From Prevotella sp. E13-17 (lineage in GTDB: Bacteria > Bacteroidota > Bacteroidia > Bacteroidales > Bacteroidaceae), in NCBI RefSeq assembly GCF_022024035.1, contig NZ_CP091787.1, positions 2,760,001-2,824,000 of the forward strand: DNA of 64,000 bases, read 5' to 3'. Position 1 is the stretch's first letter. The number at the start of each line of letters is the position of its first letter. Below are positions 2,764-61,921 of the stretch, piece after piece. Below the pieces are notes generated by a model. That model was not told where the DNA came from, did no database searches, and saw only the letters and a program-made list of their open reading frames with translations. The translations under genes were made by a program, and so were the position numbers.

Positions 2764-3077
2764 ACTTTTTCGAGAAAAATTTGAGAAATCATACAATTTT
2801 TATATTGGTCTTGATATATATCAATGTGGTGATTATACACTCTCCTTATATTATATATGCGCGCGAATGACGCCCCACCCTGAGCCGCCCGAGAATAAGA
2901 TGACTTTTACCTTGATTTTTCATCGAAATCGAAGTATGAAGCTACTCACGGGCCAAAAAGAAATAAAGAAACCTGGCATCAGACCCCAGATTCGTGCCTT
3001 CGCAACACAGAACAAAAAGGATGGCGGTGCGAAAGCACAGCTCTCGCAACCCAATACTCACGCTTTTGTAACTTTCG

Positions 3078-3231
3078 ACTTAAGTCAACAGATCTCACGA
3101 CTTAAGTCAACAGTTCTCACGACTTAAGTCGAAAGATCTCACGGCATAAGTCGTAAGATACCAAAGTACCACTATTGCATTGCAACAGTGGCGCTATAAA
3201 ACCGTAATAGTGGCCAAATAAGAAGAATAAG
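3078..3231. repeat. 22-bp-register array, 7 units (array 1)
   Basis: Cores start at 3078, 3100, 3122, 3144, 3166, 3188 and 3210, exactly 22 bp apart. The first three are ACTTAAG units with nearly identical spacers. The fourth is GCATAAG, and the last three switch to GTACCAC, GTGGCGC and GTGGCCA. The register is kept when the core changes. The preceding stretch 2770-3077 carries no gene that I can support. Confidence 0.75.
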
Positions 3232-12553: not shown

Positions 12554-12676
12554 TGCCCATTAACTTAAGAGGCAAAGGGGTCTGAACAAGCGCAGACTCC
12601 ATAAACAAGTCAAACTACATAGGGGAACTGAAAACGCTTGTTCAGACCCCCATCCCCCTAACTTAGGGGGCATTAA
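12554..12676. mobile_element. MITE-like palindromic element between mtnN and luxS
   Basis: An inverted repeat of about 120 bp. The inner arms GGGGTCTGAACAAGCG and CGCTTGTTCAGACCCC are perfect. The right arm continues with the palindrome CCCCCTAACTTAGGGGG; the left arm has decayed at the same place. A related copy lies at 31924-32047. No coding capacity, so any transposase would act in trans. As RNA it would form a long hairpin between the two genes. Confidence 0.7.
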
Positions 12677-22810: not shown

Positions 22811-22860
22811 GCAAAAGCAGTGCACTTCACATCAAAAAGCGCCACTTTGACGCCCCCATA

Positions 22861-22899
22861 GCGCCACTATTCGGATGGAATAGTGGCGCTTTTCTGCTG
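22861..22899 (+). terminator. Terminator of the radical SAM gene (array units)
   Basis: AGCGCCACTATTC (22860-22872) pairs with GAATAGTGGCGCT (22878-22890), followed by TTTTCT. Confidence 0.75.
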
Positions 22900-23074
22900 C
22901 AAAAGTGCCACTCTTGCATCGCATCCAGGGGCTGGAACTGGTCATTCTAGCCCCTGAAGCAGGTCGTTCCAGGGGCTGAATCAGGGTTCTCCAGGGGGTA
23001 GAAAATGTCATTCCAGGGGCTAGAATCGCCACAAGAGTGCTACTCTTGCATGGTCAGTGCATGACTTTTGCACC

Positions 23075-23111
23075 AAAAAAGTGCCACTATTCGCACGGAA
23101 TAGTGGCACTA
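23075..23111 (-). terminator. Terminator of the GH53 operon (array units)
   Basis: GTGCCACTATTC (23081-23092) pairs with GAATAGTGGCAC (23098-23109). On the minus strand the stem is followed by six T (complement of 23075-23080). Confidence 0.8.
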
Positions 23112-31923: not shown

Positions 31924-32047
31924 GCCCCCTAAGTTAGGGGGATGGGGGTCTGAACGACCACCCTTTAATTGATTAAATGTATTGTATTTTGTTAAACTCT
32001 TTCGGGTCTGCTAGTTCAGACCCCTGTTGTCCCCTAACTTAGGGGAC
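31924..32047. mobile_element. MITE-like palindromic element
   Basis: The left arm contains CCCCCTAAGTTAGGGGG, then GGGGTCTGAAC. The right arm has GTTCAGACCCC, then TCCCCTAACTTAGGGGA, in inverse order. About 55 bp of AT-rich sequence lies between. Same family as 12554-12676. No coding capacity. Confidence 0.75.
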
Positions 32048-32052
32048 TTTAT

Positions 32053-38711: not shown

Positions 38712-38843
38712 GCGCCCCTTTCGCCACCCAATAGTGGCACTCTGGCGCAGCCCAACCGCCACTTCTGCTCTGCAATAGTGGCACTATTGCATCGCTATAG
38801 TGGCACTATTGCCAACCGAAACCGCCCAAACCACAATAGCCTT
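38712..38843. repeat. 22-bp-register array, 6 units (array 3)
   Basis: Cores at 38712 (GCGCCCC), 38734 (GTGGCAC), 38756 (CCGCCAC), 38778 (GTGGCAC), 38800 (GTGGCAC) and 38822 (CCGCCCA) are 22 bp apart. Spacers repeat ...ATTGC. The core is the same as the outer units of array 2. It begins 15 bp after the kinase stop codon. Confidence 0.75.
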
Positions 38844-51742: not shown

Positions 51743-52050
51743 AAAAACCACAATGCCATCAAAAATGGTGGTTTGACGCCTGAAAAGTGGCGGTATGACG
51801 ATGCAATACCTTTGGTTTGATGATGTCATTCGGTAAGTTTTACTCCGCATCCAGCCCCTGAAAAGGTCAAATCCAGGGGCTGGATGTGGTCGTTTCAGCC
51901 CTTGGATGCGGTCGGTCCAGGGGCTGAAAACAGGCTTTCCAGGGGCTGGAACAGAAATGATTGCTTGGGTTTTAGACTTCAAAACTGCAACTTTCAGACT
52001 CTAAAACCACTACTCCTATACTTCAGAAATAACGCTCCAAGACTCTGGAT
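51743..52050. repeat. 22-bp-register array, about 14 units (array 4)
   Basis: Units start every 22 bp from 51743 to 52029. 51765, 51787 and 51809 share TGG..GGTTTGACG-like text. 51853, 51875, 51897, 51919 and 51941 are AGCCCCT, AGGGGCT, AGCCCTT, AGGGGCT and AGGGGCT, as in array 2. 51963, 51985, 52007 and 52029 share AGACTTC/AGACTCT at the same place in the unit. No gene lies in 51661-52381. Confidence 0.8.
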
Positions 52051-53098: not shown

Positions 53099-54799
53099 AT
53101 GAAGAATGAAGAAGGTTTAGCTCGGCGGCCCGAAGGGGAAAGCCAATTTGCTACCGCTGTAAATAAAATTACTGTTACCTCACCGTTGCTGCCCGACCTC
53201 GAAGAGTTTCACGGACTGCTGAAAGAGATTTGGGCGAGCAAGTGGGTGACGAACATGGGACAGTTCCACCGTCAGTTGGAACGCGCCCTTGCCGAGTACC
53301 TGAAAGTGCCCTATATCAGCTTGTTCACCAACGGAACCCTGCCGCTCCTGACGGCCCTTCAGGCTCTACACATCAAGGGTGAAGTCATCACCACGCCCTA
53401 CAGTTTCGTGGCCACCACCCACGCCATCTGGTGGAACGGCTGTACGCCGGTGTTTGTGGATATTGAGGAAGATACATGCGGCATCGACCCAGAAAAGATT
53501 GAAGCCGCCATCACCCCTCGCACCACAGCCATTTTGCCAGTGCATTGCTATGGCCATCCGGTGAAGATGAAGCGCATACAAGAGATTGCTGACCAATACG
53601 GCCTGAAGGTCATCTATGATGCTGCACATGCCTTTGGGGTGGAAGTAGCCCCCCAGCCCCCTAAAGGGGGTGCTATGGACGGCGCAGCCACTCCCCCTTT
53701 AGGGGGCTGGGGGGCTGCTACTGGGCGAGTTCAACATTCTGCAGATCCTGTCTATTATGGGAAATTGAAAGATTATGCAAAAGAGAATCGGAATCATCCT
53801 ACCGATGCCGAGGAGCTACTATGGAACATTCTTAGTGGGAAAGGCCTTGACGGAGTGAAGTTCCGCAGGCAACATATAATAGGTCAGTATATAGCTGATT
53901 TTGCTTGTATAGACAAGGGGCTTGTCATAGAGTTGGATGGTCATCATCATAGCTTACCTCCTGTTTGTGAGGACGACGCTATACGAACCGAGTATTTAAA
54001 TAATGAGGGCTATAAGGTTATCCGTTTTACAAACGAACAAGTCCTTCATCATCTTGACGACACTATAAAACAAATTCGTTCAGCTCTCCAAGCTCCCCAA
54101 GCCCCCCCACCCCCTAAAGGGGGAGCTACGTACGGCGCAGCCACTCCCCCTTTAGGGGGCGGGGGGGCCGGTCGGGGGGCTTGCTCTGTTTTGTCCTTTG
54201 GCGATATGAGTACCCTATCTTTTCATGCCACCAAGGTGTATAACACGCTGGAGGGCGGGGCTCTCGTGGTGCATGATGAGGAAACCAAGAAGCACATCGA
54301 CCATCTGAAAAACTTCGGGTTTGCAGGAGAGACAGAGGTGGTGGCTCCTGGCATCAACAGCAAGATGGACGAAGTGCGAGCAGCCTACGGGCTGCTTAAC
54401 CTGAAGCAGGTGGATGGCGCCATCGAAGCCCGCCGCAAGGTGGCACTGCGTTACCGTGAGGCACTTCGAGGTGTTCCCGGCATCCGTTTCTTTGAAGATA
54501 TGCCTGGTGTCCGCCACAACTACAGCTATTTTCCCATCTTCGTCAGTGCCAAGGAATATGGCATGACACGCGACGAGCTCTACTTCAAGTTGCAAGAGCG
54601 GGGCATCTTCGGCAGACGGTACTTCTATCCGCTCATCAGCACCTTCAACACATACCGCAATCTGCCATCCGCAGCCCCTGCTAACCTGCCCGTGGCTACA
54701 AGGATTGCCGACGAGGTCATCTGTCTGCCCATGCACCACGCACTGAGTGAGGAGGATATTGAAAGAGTTGTGAGTGTAGTGAAAAATCCCAAAAAGTAA
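53099..54799 (+). CDS. DegT/DnrJ/EryC1 aminotransferase carrying an inserted DUF559 nuclease domain
   Basis: A 566-residue protein. Residues 20-182 and 363-566 together form a normal PLP sugar aminotransferase of about 370 residues: FTNGTLPLLTAL, TTPYSFVATTHAIWWNG, DAAHAFGVE, then STLSFHATKVYNTLEGGA with the PLP lysine (Lys379). Residues 183-362 are foreign: a palindromic segment (PPKGG...TPPLGGWGA), a full DUF559 endonuclease-like domain (213-330), and a second palindromic segment. The insert splits the enzyme just after the PLP-binding Asp/His strand, yet the frame stays open. Whether the enzyme works is unknown. It sits between upxY and an MBOAT gene. Confidence 0.88.
   Translation: MKNEEGLARRPEGESQFATAVNKITVTSPLLPDLEEFHGLLKEIWASKWVTNMGQFHRQLERALAEYLKVPYISLFTNGTLPLLTALQALHIKGEVITTPYSFVATTHAIWWNGCTPVFVDIEEDTCGIDPEKIEAAITPRTTAILPVHCYGHPVKMKRIQEIADQYGLKVIYDAAHAFGVEVAPQPPKGGAMDGAATPPLGGWGAATGRVQHSADPVYYGKLKDYAKENRNHPTDAEELLWNILSGKGLDGVKFRRQHIIGQYIADFACIDKGLVIELDGHHHSLPPVCEDDAIRTEYLNNEGYKVIRFTNEQVLHHLDDTIKQIRSALQAPQAPPPPKGGATYGAATPPLGGGGAGRGACSVLSFGDMSTLSFHATKVYNTLEGGALVVHDEETKKHIDHLKNFGFAGETEVVAPGINSKMDEVRAAYGLLNLKQVDGAIEARRKVALRYREALRGVPGIRFFEDMPGVRHNYSYFPIFVSAKEYGMTRDELYFKLQERGIFGRRYFYPLISTFNTYRNLPSAAPANLPVATRIADEVICLPMHHALSEEDIERVVSVVKNPKK
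53647..53716. repeat. Palindromic element, copy 1
   Basis: The left arm AGCCCCCCAGCCCCCT, AAAGGGGG is repeated inverted at the right (CCCCCTTT, AGGGGGCTGGGGGGCT). The centre reads GACGGCGCAGC. 70 bp; encodes APQPPKGG and TPPLGGWGA. Confidence 0.85.
54100..54182. repeat. Palindromic element, copy 2
   Basis: Same family as copy 1: CCCCCTAAAGGGGG, a centre TACGGCGCAGC, then CCCCCTTTAGGGGG and a longer G-rich end. It encodes APPPPKGG and TPPLGGGGAGRG. Confidence 0.85.
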
Positions 54800-58485: not shown

Positions 58486-59379
58486 ATGTTACATATTATG
58501 AAAGAGAATCAAGCCCCCTTGCTAGCCCCCCAGCCCCCTGAAGGGGGAGCTTCTAAGAGCGCAGCCACTCCCCCTTCAGGGGGTCGGGGGGCTGGTCCCT
58601 ACATCGCCATCATGCAGCCGTACTTCTTCCCTTACATCGGCTATTGGCAGCTCATCCATGCTGCCGACTTGTTTGTGGTTGGCGACAGTGTTCACTATAT
58701 CAAGCATGGCTGGATTAACCGCAACCGCATCTTGGGCGAGGGTGGCCAGCCTCAGTACTTCGGCATTGAAGTAAGCCACGCCTCCTGCAACCACCTCATC
58801 AGCGAGACGAAACGGGTGGTCAGCCGCAAACAGGCAGAATACCTCTGTCGGGTGCTGAAGTTCTACTATGGCAAAGCACCACACTACAACGAAGCGATGG
58901 AAGTCATCAAGCCTATATTGCTGGACGAAGAACCCGACCTGACGCGCTATCTCGTCAGCGGCTTGCGGACCGTGGCTGACTATCTCGGCATCACGACGGA
59001 GTTCCGTATGCTCTCGGAGGTGTCAGACCGCTGGGAGTACAGAGCACCCGAGATTATCAGTCGCACGTGCGAGCATTTCGGCATTACCGACTATATCAAT
59101 CCCTCAGGTGCCGGAATGGGCTATTACGACAAGGATGCTTTCCGCGAGATGGGCATCAACCTCCAGTTCCTGCGGCGCGACGAGGACATATGGTATAGGC
59201 AAGGCAAAGAGCAAGCCCCCCGGCCCCCTGAAGGGGGAGTGGCTGCGCGCTTAGAAGCTCCCCCTTTAGGGGGCTGGGGGGCTTGCTCTTTCGTTCCCGA
59301 CCTGAGCATCATCGACCTGATGATGTTCTGCTCACGCGATGAGCTCCACGACATTCTGAATCGTTATCATTTCTTATGA
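58486..59379 (+). CDS. WbqC family protein with two in-frame palindromic inserts
   Basis: A 297-residue protein. The WbqC core starts at YIAIMQPYFFPYIGYWQLIH and runs through YINPSGAGMGYYDKDAF to SIIDLMMFCSRDEL. WbqC-like proteins belong to polysaccharide loci and may add amino acids or sugars to glycans; activity is not proven. Residues about 13-36 (APQPPEGG...TPPSGGRGAG) and 243-267 (APRPPEGG...APPLGGWGAC) are encoded by palindromic elements: the first lengthens the N-terminus, the second lies before the last conserved motif. ATG 58486 or 58498 may be used. Confidence 0.85.
   Translation: MLHIMKENQAPLLAPQPPEGGASKSAATPPSGGRGAGPYIAIMQPYFFPYIGYWQLIHAADLFVVGDSVHYIKHGWINRNRILGEGGQPQYFGIEVSHASCNHLISETKRVVSRKQAEYLCRVLKFYYGKAPHYNEAMEVIKPILLDEEPDLTRYLVSGLRTVADYLGITTEFRMLSEVSDRWEYRAPEIISRTCEHFGITDYINPSGAGMGYYDKDAFREMGINLQFLRRDEDIWYRQGKEQAPRPPEGGVAARLEAPPLGGWGACSFVPDLSIIDLMMFCSRDELHDILNRYHFL
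58524..58593. repeat. Palindromic element, copy 3 (in WbqC N-terminus)
   Basis: 70 bp, the same length as copy 1. Arms AGCCCCCCAGCCCCCT, GAAGGGGG and CCCCCTTCAGGGGG; centre TTCTAAGAGCGCAGCC. Confidence 0.85.
59213..59285. repeat. Palindromic element, copy 4 (inverted, in WbqC C-terminus)
   Basis: The centre (GGCTGCGCGCTTAGAAGC) is the reverse complement of the centre of copy 3 with one change, so this copy is inserted in the opposite orientation and is still open in the host frame. Confidence 0.85.
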
Positions 59380-59383
59380 TTAG

Positions 59384-61921
59384 ATGGCTGAATCGCTGAA
59401 ACAGAAAACGGTGAAGGGCTTGGGCTGGTCGGCATTGGACAATGCCGCCCGCTATGGCATGCAGTTCGTCATCGGCATTGTGCTGGCTCGTCTGCTGTCG
59501 CCCGACGACTACGGTCTGCTGGGACTGGTGGGCATCGTCAACGTTGTCTGTACGGCATTGGTCAATGGCGGTTTTACTACAGCACTGATACGCAAGAAGG
59601 ATGCCACCGAGGAGGACTATAACACCGCCTTCATCTGCAACCTCTTGATGAGCCTGCTGCTCTATACCGTGATATTCCTCTGTGCCCCGTTGATTGCCGA
59701 CTTCTTCGGGCGCGTCGAGTTGACGGCTTTGGTGCGGGTATCGTCGTTAGGTCTGATCATCGGTGCCTTAGGCATGGTGCAGCAGACACGCCTGACCAAG
59801 CGCATTGACTTCAAGACGCAAACGAAGATTACGATTGCAGCCACTGCTTTGAGCGGCATCATAGGCATTGGCATGGCGCTGACGGGCTTTGGCGTATGGT
59901 CGCTGGTAGCCCAGCAGCTCACTTCACAGGTCGTGACCACCATGCTGCTATATATATATAATAGGTGGATACCCGGACTGCGCTTCTCGATGGAAAGTTT
60001 TCACGATTTGTTCGGATTCGGCTGGAAGATGATGTTGAGCGGAGTGCTTGATTCGGTGTGGAAAGAGTCGTACCAAATGGTCGTGGGCAAGGTTTACACG
60101 CCTGGAGCATTGGGACAATACACCCGTGCCAAGCAGTTCTCCTCGCTGTTTTCGAGCAACCTGACCGCTGTCATCCAGCGCGTCACCTATCCCGTACTCA
60201 GCAATATCCAGGACGACAGGCAGCGTATGGTCTCTGCTTATCGGCGCATTATCAAGGTCACGATGTTTGTCACTGCCACGGGAATGTTTTTCCTTGCAGC
60301 CATTTCGGAACCGATGCTCTATTGTCTGATTGGCCCCCAATGGCATGAGGCTTCGACCTATCTCCCGCTGATTTGTCTGAGCAGTACGCTTTACCCGCTC
60401 CATGCCATCAACCTAAACATGCTGCAGGTGCAAGGACGCAGCGACCTATTCCTCGGTCTGGAAATCGTCAAAAAGCTGATTGGCCTTATTCCTCTTGCGG
60501 TATGCGTCTTTTGGGGAATTATGCCCATGCTCTATGTGAATCTTGCCGTTGGAGTCGTGGCATATCTCCTTAATTCGTATTATTCAGGCCGCCTGATAGG
60601 CTATAGTTCGTGGATGCAGGTAAAAGACATTGCCCCTTCTTGTCTGGTTGCCGCCATTGTAGCCGTCAGCGTATTTTTCGTCAAGTATCTTCCTGTAAGC
60701 TATTGGGTGATATTGCCGCTACAGATAGTAACGGGGGCCGCCGTCTTCATGGTGTTGTGCCAGCTGACAAGAAACCCGGAATACATAGAGATGAAAACGA
60801 TGCTTGCTGTATATAAAAGCCCCCCTGCCCCCCCTGAAGGGGGAAATCCGACGCACAAGCCTCCCATTAGGGGGGACAGGGGGGCTTTTAAATGGATGGT
60901 CTGCACAAGGTGTGTCACTTTCAACCAAGCACCCTATATCGAGGATGCCATGAATGGCTTCACGATGCAGCAGACCACATTCCCATTTGTCTGCACGATT
61001 ATTGACGATGCCAGTACCGACGGCGAGCCGGAAGTCATCCGCCAATATCTGCAGGAACATTTCGACTTGGAAGACAAATCTGTAGTACGTAACGAAGAAA
61101 CAGACGACTACGTGCTTTGTTTCGCCCGGCATAAGGAAAACCGGAATTGCCACTTTGTTGTGCTGTGGTTGAAATACAATCACCACAGCATACATAAGTC
61201 GATCATGCCGTATATTGCAGCATGGAAGGAAAACTCGAAATACTATGCGCTATGCGAGGGCGATGATTACTGGACGAGTCCCCAAAAGCTGCAGCGGCAA
61301 GTTCAGTTCCTTGAGCAGCATGACGATTATGTCATGTCGTACTCGCAAGCTGCGGTTCGCAGCGGCGACGACATTGTGGGGCTTAGAAAGTTCAAGACAT
61401 GCGACTTCGAGTCGATTATCTGTTTCAATGGAATAACGACCTTAACCGTTTTATTCAGGGAGGAACTGAGGAAACGGTTTGGGGATGAGATTAGACCGAT
61501 AGCCCCCGGTGGTTGGCTGATGGGCGACTATCCTATATGGCTCTATCTGAGTCTGAAGGGTAAAATCCATTATATCGCAGAACCCTTGGGCGTGTATCGG
61601 CTGCAGTCTGAAAGTGCTTCTCATAGCGCAGATTTGCAAAAATCGTTGGACTTTGCTGATAATGTCTGCCAAGTAAGACTGTTTTTCATGGACTATGCGG
61701 AAAGAATAACGGGAGTTCGAAATGCGAAGTTGAGAAAGAAGGTAGCGGTCGAGAATATGAAAAGATTGTTGTCGGTCTATTATTCCTTTAATGATTTTGC
61801 AGGCGCAAAGAATTATTTGGAAGGAAATAGGAAAAAACTTTCATTCTTGTCTTTTTTTATATTGAAACTGAAAGTCATTAAGGAAAGTTATATTGCTGGA
61901 TGGAAAAACGTATATCGATAA
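59384..61921 (+). CDS. Flippase fused to a family 2 glycosyltransferase through a palindromic element
   Basis: An 845-residue protein. Residues 1-476 are a Wzx-type lipopolysaccharide flippase (MATE-like, about 12-14 helices): GLGWSALDNAARYGMQFVIG, VLARLLSPDDYGLLGLVGIV. Residues 477-502 (SPPAPPEGG, KPPIRGDRGAF) come from palindromic element copy 5. Residues 505-845 are a GT2 glycosyltransferase (VCTIIDDASTDGEPEV, ALCEGDDYWTSPQKLQ). The two are normally separate genes. An ATG at codon 505 (60896) could also start the transferase alone. It overlaps the next gene by 22 bp. Confidence 0.88.
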   Translation: MAESLKQKTVKGLGWSALDNAARYGMQFVIGIVLARLLSPDDYGLLGLVGIVNVVCTALVNGGFTTALIRKKDATEEDYNTAFICNLLMSLLLYTVIFLCAPLIADFFGRVELTALVRVSSLGLIIGALGMVQQTRLTKRIDFKTQTKITIAATALSGIIGIGMALTGFGVWSLVAQQLTSQVVTTMLLYIYNRWIPGLRFSMESFHDLFGFGWKMMLSGVLDSVWKESYQMVVGKVYTPGALGQYTRAKQFSSLFSSNLTAVIQRVTYPVLSNIQDDRQRMVSAYRRIIKVTMFVTATGMFFLAAISEPMLYCLIGPQWHEASTYLPLICLSSTLYPLHAINLNMLQVQGRSDLFLGLEIVKKLIGLIPLAVCVFWGIMPMLYVNLAVGVVAYLLNSYYSGRLIGYSSWMQVKDIAPSCLVAAIVAVSVFFVKYLPVSYWVILPLQIVTGAAVFMVLCQLTRNPEYIEMKTMLAVYKSPPAPPEGGNPTHKPPIRGDRGAFKWMVCTRCVTFNQAPYIEDAMNGFTMQQTTFPFVCTIIDDASTDGEPEVIRQYLQEHFDLEDKSVVRNEETDDYVLCFARHKENRNCHFVVLWLKYNHHSIHKSIMPYIAAWKENSKYYALCEGDDYWTSPQKLQRQVQFLEQHDDYVMSYSQAAVRSGDDIVGLRKFKTCDFESIICFNGITTLTVLFREELRKRFGDEIRPIAPGGWLMGDYPIWLYLSLKGKIHYIAEPLGVYRLQSESASHSADLQKSLDFADNVCQVRLFFMDYAERITGVRNAKLRKKVAVENMKRLLSVYYSFNDFAGAKNYLEGNRKKLSFLSFFILKLKVIKESYIAGWKNVYR
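60814..60890. repeat. Palindromic element, copy 5 (at the fusion point)
   Basis: Outer arms TAAAAGCCCCCCTG and CAGGGGGGCTTTTA are perfect inverted copies; inner CCCCCCCTGAAGGGGG on the left and a decayed partner on the right. The centre differs from copies 1-4. Confidence 0.8.

Follow-up and report, generated by a model that had tools for sequence, protein, structure and literature searches.

What kind of segment can lie within the gene of an enzyme, carry a nuclease domain of its own and yet leave the reading frame open from end to end? This question is raised by a locus of Prevotella sp. E13-17, found in a stretch of 64,000 nucleotides (contig NZ_CP091787.1, positions 2,760,001 to 2,824,000), which is called the window in the following. 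An open reading frame (ORF) of 566 stop-free codons at 53099-54799 (+) encodes an aminotransferase of the DegT/DnrJ/EryC1/StrS type, split by a segment which bears a DUF559 domain, a family still labelled 'unknown function' in Pfam. Probably (about 75 %) the insert is a copy of a family of mobile elements resembling repetitive extragenic palindromes (REP), whose nuclease drives their spread and which persist in genes by being translated unspliced.

Anatomy of the insert

In a Pfam scan of the ORF the DegT_DnrJ_EryC1 match falls into two stretches with DUF559 (PF04480; 110.3 bits versus a curated cut-off of 20.6; E 5.7e-32) between them at residues 222-330; the only families found are those of the host and DUF559/MTES_1575. 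A phmmer comparison with the solved structure 2po3 pairs residues 38-187 and 366-561 of the query with residues 35-184 and 187-379 of the chain, leaving about 176-178 surplus residues at a single point. The insert spans 53645-54184 and comprises the Vsr-like DUF559 domain flanked by palindromes of 69 nt, in frame with the host. In each 69-nt unit a C-rich tail with a CCCCCTAAAGGGGG hairpin occurs as an inverted pair, and the unit is without stops in the host frame. The components are the following:

53099..53647 (+), N-terminal part of the host aminotransferase, residues 1-183 (ORF, Pfam, phmmer versus 2po3)
53648..53716 (+), left mini-element, inverted pair GCCCCCCAGCCCCCTAAAGGGGG...CCCCCTTTAGGGGGCTGGGGGGCT, 69 nt = 23 codons (APQPPKGGAMDGAATPPLGGWGA)
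53762..54088 (+), DUF559 (Vsr-like PD-(D/E)XK) nuclease domain, residues 222-330, with conserved E238, D267, E278, D280 and H284
54101..54169 (+), right mini-element of 69 nt or 23 codons (APPPPKGGATYGAATPPLGGGGA); it and the left one are 91 % alike
54174..54187 (+), additional right-hand end GGGGGGCTTGCTCT, same as the mini-element end at 59276-59289 (sequence reading)
54185..54799 (+), C-terminal part of the host aminotransferase, where the frame picks up again at SVLSFGDMSTLSFHATK (empty homologues, 2po3)

The original prediction of a DUF559 nuclease between palindromes, in frame within an aminotransferase, is confirmed by the ORF, the Pfam matches and the two units. It had also set beforehand, as the test by which it could fall, a search for homologues without the DUF559 segment. 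Such an uninterrupted gene is present in five genomes of the same genus (G028, G025, G008, G010 and G019). In G028 the identity is 84 % to the left and 80 % to the right of the insert, with 6 bp separating the matches; the other four genomes show the same pattern, and in each of the five the empty gene is one open frame. The empty genes read, for example, GVEV-NGE-SVL, and the window reads GVEV-(insert)-SVL. To judge from these alignments, the insert takes the place of a three-residue turn, so that the proposed site at residues 182/363 holds with respect to the empty homologues but not as a clean point of entry. A target-site duplication was not established at the window insert, because the nearest empty genes share only about 80 % identity with it.

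Occurrence in other host genes

The arrangement is not confined to one gene. In-frame copies of DUF559 were found in 26 groups of host genes, chiefly of Bacteroidota, including MetH, MetRS, IleRS, LeuRS and UvrA; three of these groups (MetRS, IleRS and LeuRS) are related class I synthetases. When 5.8 billion proteins were searched for chimera-sized matches only, 267 were obtained, and the partners of DUF559 in the 120 listed of these are DegT, MetRS, methionine synthase, CinA, urocanate hydratase, CoA-transferase, tryptophan dioxygenase, adenine deaminase, GcpE and others. The MetH form is also present in Flavobacterium cucumis DSM 18830 (L102), Winogradskyella sediminis DSM 28134 (L094) and Salegentibacter holothuriorum DSM 23405 (L143). 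Host names are based on matches to Pfam and PDB and on NCBIfam where run; the hosts which we take to be NAGK, RNase H, ABC-F, HsdM, WecB, GH31, GNAT, MaoC-like, helicase, mod methyltransferase, GltB and mannosidase were named by reading their sequences.

Some hosts have more than one entry point, with five in methionine synthase, two each in LeuRS, UvrA and IspG and at least three in DegT-like enzymes, and five single ORFs contain two DUF559 domains (L107, L109, P0015, P0017 and P0045). The DUF559 match itself is split in five DegT chimeras (P0048, P0071, P0072, P0078 and P0098), apparently because the nuclease contains a nested palindrome; because of this apparent nesting these copies may be inactive. 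At another locus (L140:3563-6577) a single frame without stops covers both RdgB/Ham1, which contains DUF559, and PorZ.

Among named bacterial genomes at least 554 DUF559 relatives were confirmed. Among the 80 best-scoring ones, 63 are situated within open frames of 356-1468 residues; this sample is biased towards embedded copies, from which the query was derived. In a less biased set of 60 relatives, frames of at least 300 residues occur in 18 of the 59 matches listed, three of them weak partial ones. At the order level (295 genomes) such frames accompany 26 of the best 150 DUF559 matches and at the phylum level (395 genomes) 49 of the best 150; all these counts concern best-scoring matches only, and a long frame by itself is no proof of embedding. 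DUF559 is present in 222 of the 395 sampled genomes of the phylum.

DUF559 domains were collected with a hidden Markov model on six frames, and 255 of 261 sequences were kept; six were dropped as below the score or length limit, including P0078 with its split domain. The host labels of four sequences, initially grouped with MetH/MetRS, were set by hand. On the FastTree phylogeny of the 255 domains the host label changes 43 times (minimum possible 26) and the embedded or standalone state 13 times, both being counts only.

Hairpins around DUF559 genes

Perfect C-rich hairpins with arms of 7 were counted within 300 bp of the domain and, as a control, at 900 bp distance. In the genome of the window, a single contig of 3.45 Mb, they occur in 8 of 10 flanks versus 0 of 10 at 900 bp. 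The relatives gave 62/92 versus 2/92 flanks (46 of 56 loci, those with full flanks), the named loci 76/158 versus 2/142 (79 of 80 loci) and plasmid loci from Pseudomonadota, Cyanobacteriota and Deinococcota 17/24 versus 2/24 (12 loci of 41 records). Relatives from viral contigs served as a negative control and show no hairpin excess (3/88 versus 1/88 flanks; 44 of 76 loci, with full flanks). Hairpins are borne by 64 of 98 flanks of standalone and 82 of 158 flanks of embedded copies. A stricter test for inverted repeats gave a score of at least 20 in 21 of 80 named loci versus 0 of 63 far controls, and 1 of 46 viral-contig relatives was positive. In an inverted-repeat test of the relatives' loci, 17 of 49 exceed the 99th percentile of cross-locus pairs; as the ends are alike between genomes, this control is a strict one.

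The association of DUF559 genes with palindromes, whose absence outside the window had been set as a second way to refute the original prediction, is strong; what did not hold is the identity of the palindromes, as the other four of the five DUF559 genes of this genome adjoin hairpins of related but different sequence. A viral origin was considered and rejected, since the 76 viral-contig relatives (27-47 % identical) are without hairpin excess where their flanks are full.

Two further arrangements were noticed. A hairpin-ended DUF559 gene lies between sufB and sufC in Sphingomonas (L303, one of the plasmid loci), and on two Deinococcus plasmids (L298 and L306) a DUF559 gene lies within an hpa gene cluster.

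Function of the chimeras and of the nuclease

LeuRS, IleRS and guanylate kinase (gmk) are essential. A check of leuS, ileS and gmk found the DUF559 chimera as the sole copy over the NCBIfam cut-off in eight genomes in all: four for LeuRS (96-99 % complete, stop-free), two for IleRS and two for guanylate kinase. Therefore the chimeras are very probably functional as host enzymes. Matches to solved structures place the insert between residues 242/248 of 1rqg in MetRS, 529/540 of 8c8w in IleRS and 139/144 of 6mr3 in CinA, and AlphaFold predicts the host fold intact with the insert in place.

None of the 184 two-sided inserts has the C-terminal intein motif His-Asn-Cys/Ser/Thr in the 70 residues that follow DUF559, in agreement with the absence of a splicing motif remarked earlier for the window. 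The Pfam matches of the window chimera and of seven other chimeras include no Hint splicing domain, and no Rfam family, a group I/II intron core included, reaches the gathering threshold between 53000 and 61500 of the window. In the absence of intein motif and ribozyme the insert is expected to stay in the protein.

The DUF559 fold matches Vsr/EDxHD-like nucleases among solved structures, Vsr being a structural neighbour. All 199 embedded domains analysed have the active-site residues Asp/Glu/Asp without exception. The ratio of nonsynonymous to synonymous substitution rates (dN/dS) was computed for 389 pairs, of which 22, all MetH, had a usable dS; it is near 0.1 in close pairs.

Elements without nuclease

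Solo palindromes of the same kind had been reported close to the insert, and three nuclease-free units, each open in frame, indeed lie within 7 kb of it:

58525-58593 (+), nuclease-free mini-element, in frame, close to the N-terminal end of a WbqC-like ORF (58486-59379)
59215-59283 (+), nuclease-free mini-element, in frame, close to the C-terminal end of that WbqC-like ORF, with arms reaching 59206-59291
60811-60893 (+), mini-element, in frame, joining the flippase and glycosyltransferase parts of ORF 59384-61921

The last of these bridges flippase and glycosyltransferase in one open frame, which suggests that mini-elements can fuse adjoining genes.

The exact palindrome CCCCCTNAAGGGGG has 9 sites in the genome, all inside one 7.2 kb stretch; the backward pattern, taken as a control, has 0 exact matches. 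A second palindrome pattern has 27 sites in the 18 stretches read, of which 9 are inside stop-to-stop frames of at least 150 codons (either strand) and 18 outside. Several of these 9 are translated in frame to peptides like LTPSPSPSGEG. By eye, the ends of the elements read GCCCCCC... in the window and GACCCCACCCCCGA / CCTCACCCCC elsewhere.

Other repeats were seen in the window. A further palindrome family around CCCCCTAACTTAGGGGG has direct and inverted copies at 893-918, 12647-12672, 31924-31955 and 32023-32048, and almost the same sequence flanks a DUF559 locus of a relative (L055). Clusters of repeats with a period of 22 nt and CACTATT / AGTGGC units occur at 3036-3218, 22840-23111 and 38713-38812, and CCAGGGGCTGGAA repeats of 81 nt at 22923-23025 and 51871-51951.

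Proposed mechanism and alternative explanations

A full element would consist of a DUF559 (Vsr/EDxHD-like) nuclease frame between inverted palindromic ends, each end being a C-rich tail with a C-rich/G-rich hairpin. The nuclease would recognise these hairpin ends and nick or cut there, after which repair or replication would copy the element to new places. Inverted pairs of REPs that act as mini-elements are known as REPINs; short derivatives of the present element, inverted pairs of ends without the nuclease, would be REPIN-like and spread in trans. Insertions into genes would be filtered by selection and survive only in frame at a tolerant loop, turn or domain linker; such survival is possible since one frame of the palindromes, linkers and nuclease is free of stops. 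In the unspliced product the palindromes would serve as disordered linkers, and the nuclease would be an additional domain tethered to the host. Residence in an essential gene would shield the element because imprecise loss would damage the host. This reading is founded on the anatomy of the insert, the association of nuclease and hairpins in four phyla, the empty sites, the 26 host groups, the retained active-site residues and the sole copies of essential genes. The odds are somewhat better than even that it extends to an element class in several phyla, where a Vsr-like nuclease mobilises REP-like hairpins and essential enzymes of Bacteroidota, among them the leucyl-, isoleucyl- and methionyl-tRNA synthetases, carry an active, translated and unspliced selfish nuclease.

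Several observations weigh against it. Many same-site insertions are inherited and not independent, and the tree rests on about 110 columns. The invariance of the active site is partly built in, as E-x-D was within the pattern that fetched the 80 named loci, and the six sequences dropped from the 261 are where decayed copies would fall. The median dN/dS of the 22 pairs is higher for DUF559 (0.22) than for the host (0.11). No hairpin was found at 76 of 158 flanks of embedded copies, and the inverted-repeat score is below 20 in 59 of 80 named loci. The number of DUF559 genes correlates only moderately with the second palindrome pattern (Spearman 0.46, p 2e-4 in 60 genomes; 0.43, p 0.009 in 36 genomes of the same genus), kinship not being corrected for in either case; fewer than four second-pattern sites occur in 17 of 28 DUF559-bearing genomes and at least four in 3 of 32 genomes without DUF559. 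G027 (79 % complete) has 39 exact CCCCCTNAAGGGGG sites and G045 (91 % complete) seven palindrome sites, both without a DUF559 match. The original prediction of a mobile element persisting by in-frame translation is supported insofar as in-frame residence recurs; that the nuclease moves it is what we infer, no transposition event having been seen.

The palindromes might instead be moved by another enzyme of the cell, e.g. a Y1 transposase of the IS200 type or a REP-associated tyrosine transposase (RAYT), with DUF559 as a passenger caught between two of them. Palindromes are indeed more numerous than DUF559 genes and exist in G027 and G045, where no DUF559 match was found. However, the same nuclease family lies between hairpins in four phyla with differing palindrome sequences, and neither an active site kept in all 199 embedded copies analysed nor a dN/dS near 0.1 in close pairs is expected of a passenger, which makes this explanation unlikely. 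That DUF559 is a very-short-patch mismatch-repair enzyme and the palindromes its accidental sites of action is very unlikely: Vsr is a structural neighbour, and Caulobacter VsrA has a DUF559 domain and induces the SOS response when a cytosine methyltransferase is missing (PMC12907096), but nesting in 26 host groups, element-like ends and five copies in one genome are left unexplained.

Removal of the segment after translation or from RNA, like an intein or intron, would suit its in-frame position in essential enzymes and a nuclease fold known from a homing endonuclease. It was ruled out by the lack of splice motifs and of an Rfam match, to which the host fold predicted intact with the insert can be added, and we regard it as highly improbable. 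An ordinary domain fusion, in which various enzymes recruited DUF559 as a useful extra domain, can point to the MetH linker, MetRS and DegT insertions, which are conserved and common to many organisms; it is most improbable given 26 host groups without evident common function, cases of several sites in one protein and of two inserts in one ORF, palindromic ends, nuclease-free mini-versions and empty orthologues. For an artefact of assembly or annotation no supporting point was found, and its probability is negligible: the genome is one contig, near-identical chimeras recur on several contigs (P0001 on 8, P0004 on 6), and the MetH form exists in the two Flavobacterium and Winogradskyella strains.

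Significance and comparison with known systems

The usual view is that coding sequence tolerates selfish elements only if they are spliced out, as inteins or introns are. The element of the window bears an enzyme and is apparently translated as part of the host protein, including in genes indispensable to the cell; this appears to be a novel mode of life for selfish DNA, residing within functional proteins. If this is true, DUF559 gains a role and REP-like repeats an enzyme, and the spread of in-frame palindromic elements, as in Rickettsia, obtains a testable molecular explanation. It would also be a natural route by which proteins acquire whole domains and linkers. Annotations should be read with care, since chimeras may bear the name 'very-short-patch-repair endonuclease' (P0029, P0055 and P0105). 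In open-access titles and abstracts, a scope outside which most subscription journals and bioRxiv lie, no paper links DUF559/COG2852 with palindromic elements or in-frame insertion, in line with the initial statement that no described system of quite this kind was known. Two papers contain both 'DUF559' and 'palindrom' (PMC8861277 and PMC9454445), with CRISPR/secretion and NAD metabolism as their topics.

Inteins with homing endonucleases, and the EDxHD homing endonuclease I-Bth0305I, differ from the present chimeras, which in those scanned have no splice motif or splicing domain and which have palindromic ends and many unrelated sites. Miniature inverted-repeat transposable elements likewise share the ends of a full element without its enzyme; here, however, a hairpin forms each of the ends, the element contains no DDE transposase and a target-site duplication was not found. 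Vsr and Caulobacter VsrA are described as repair enzymes; the word 'palindrome' is absent from PMC12907096, and its available part has nothing on nesting in host proteins.

REP/RAYT systems (REPtrons) consist of dispersed short palindromes with tag and hairpin and an enzyme gene flanked by such palindromes (PMC3733652). The DUF559 elements share dispersed palindromes, inverted pairs and a flanked enzyme gene; in contrast, their enzyme is a PD-(D/E)XK nuclease and not a HUH/Y1 transposase, and their full elements lie with the enzyme in frame inside protein genes. Pfam finds no Y1 (HUH) transposase between the repeats in the window ORF, a genome-wide search for Y1 not having been made, and the ends read by eye have a C-rich tail and no GTAG or CGTC tag at the hairpin foot. 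With no Y1 in the element and no such tag, they do not belong to REP/RAYT; nor are they inteins. Rickettsia palindromic elements (RPE) are also found in frame within unrelated protein genes, with a conserved peptide; the available text mentions no nuclease for them (PMC10969869), whereas here the element has an enzyme by which it might spread, and Bacteroidota are the main hosts. By analogy, the DUF559 element can be compared to a REP/REPIN system that has another enzyme, to an RPE supplemented with an enzyme and to the homing endonuclease of an intein, but without splicing.
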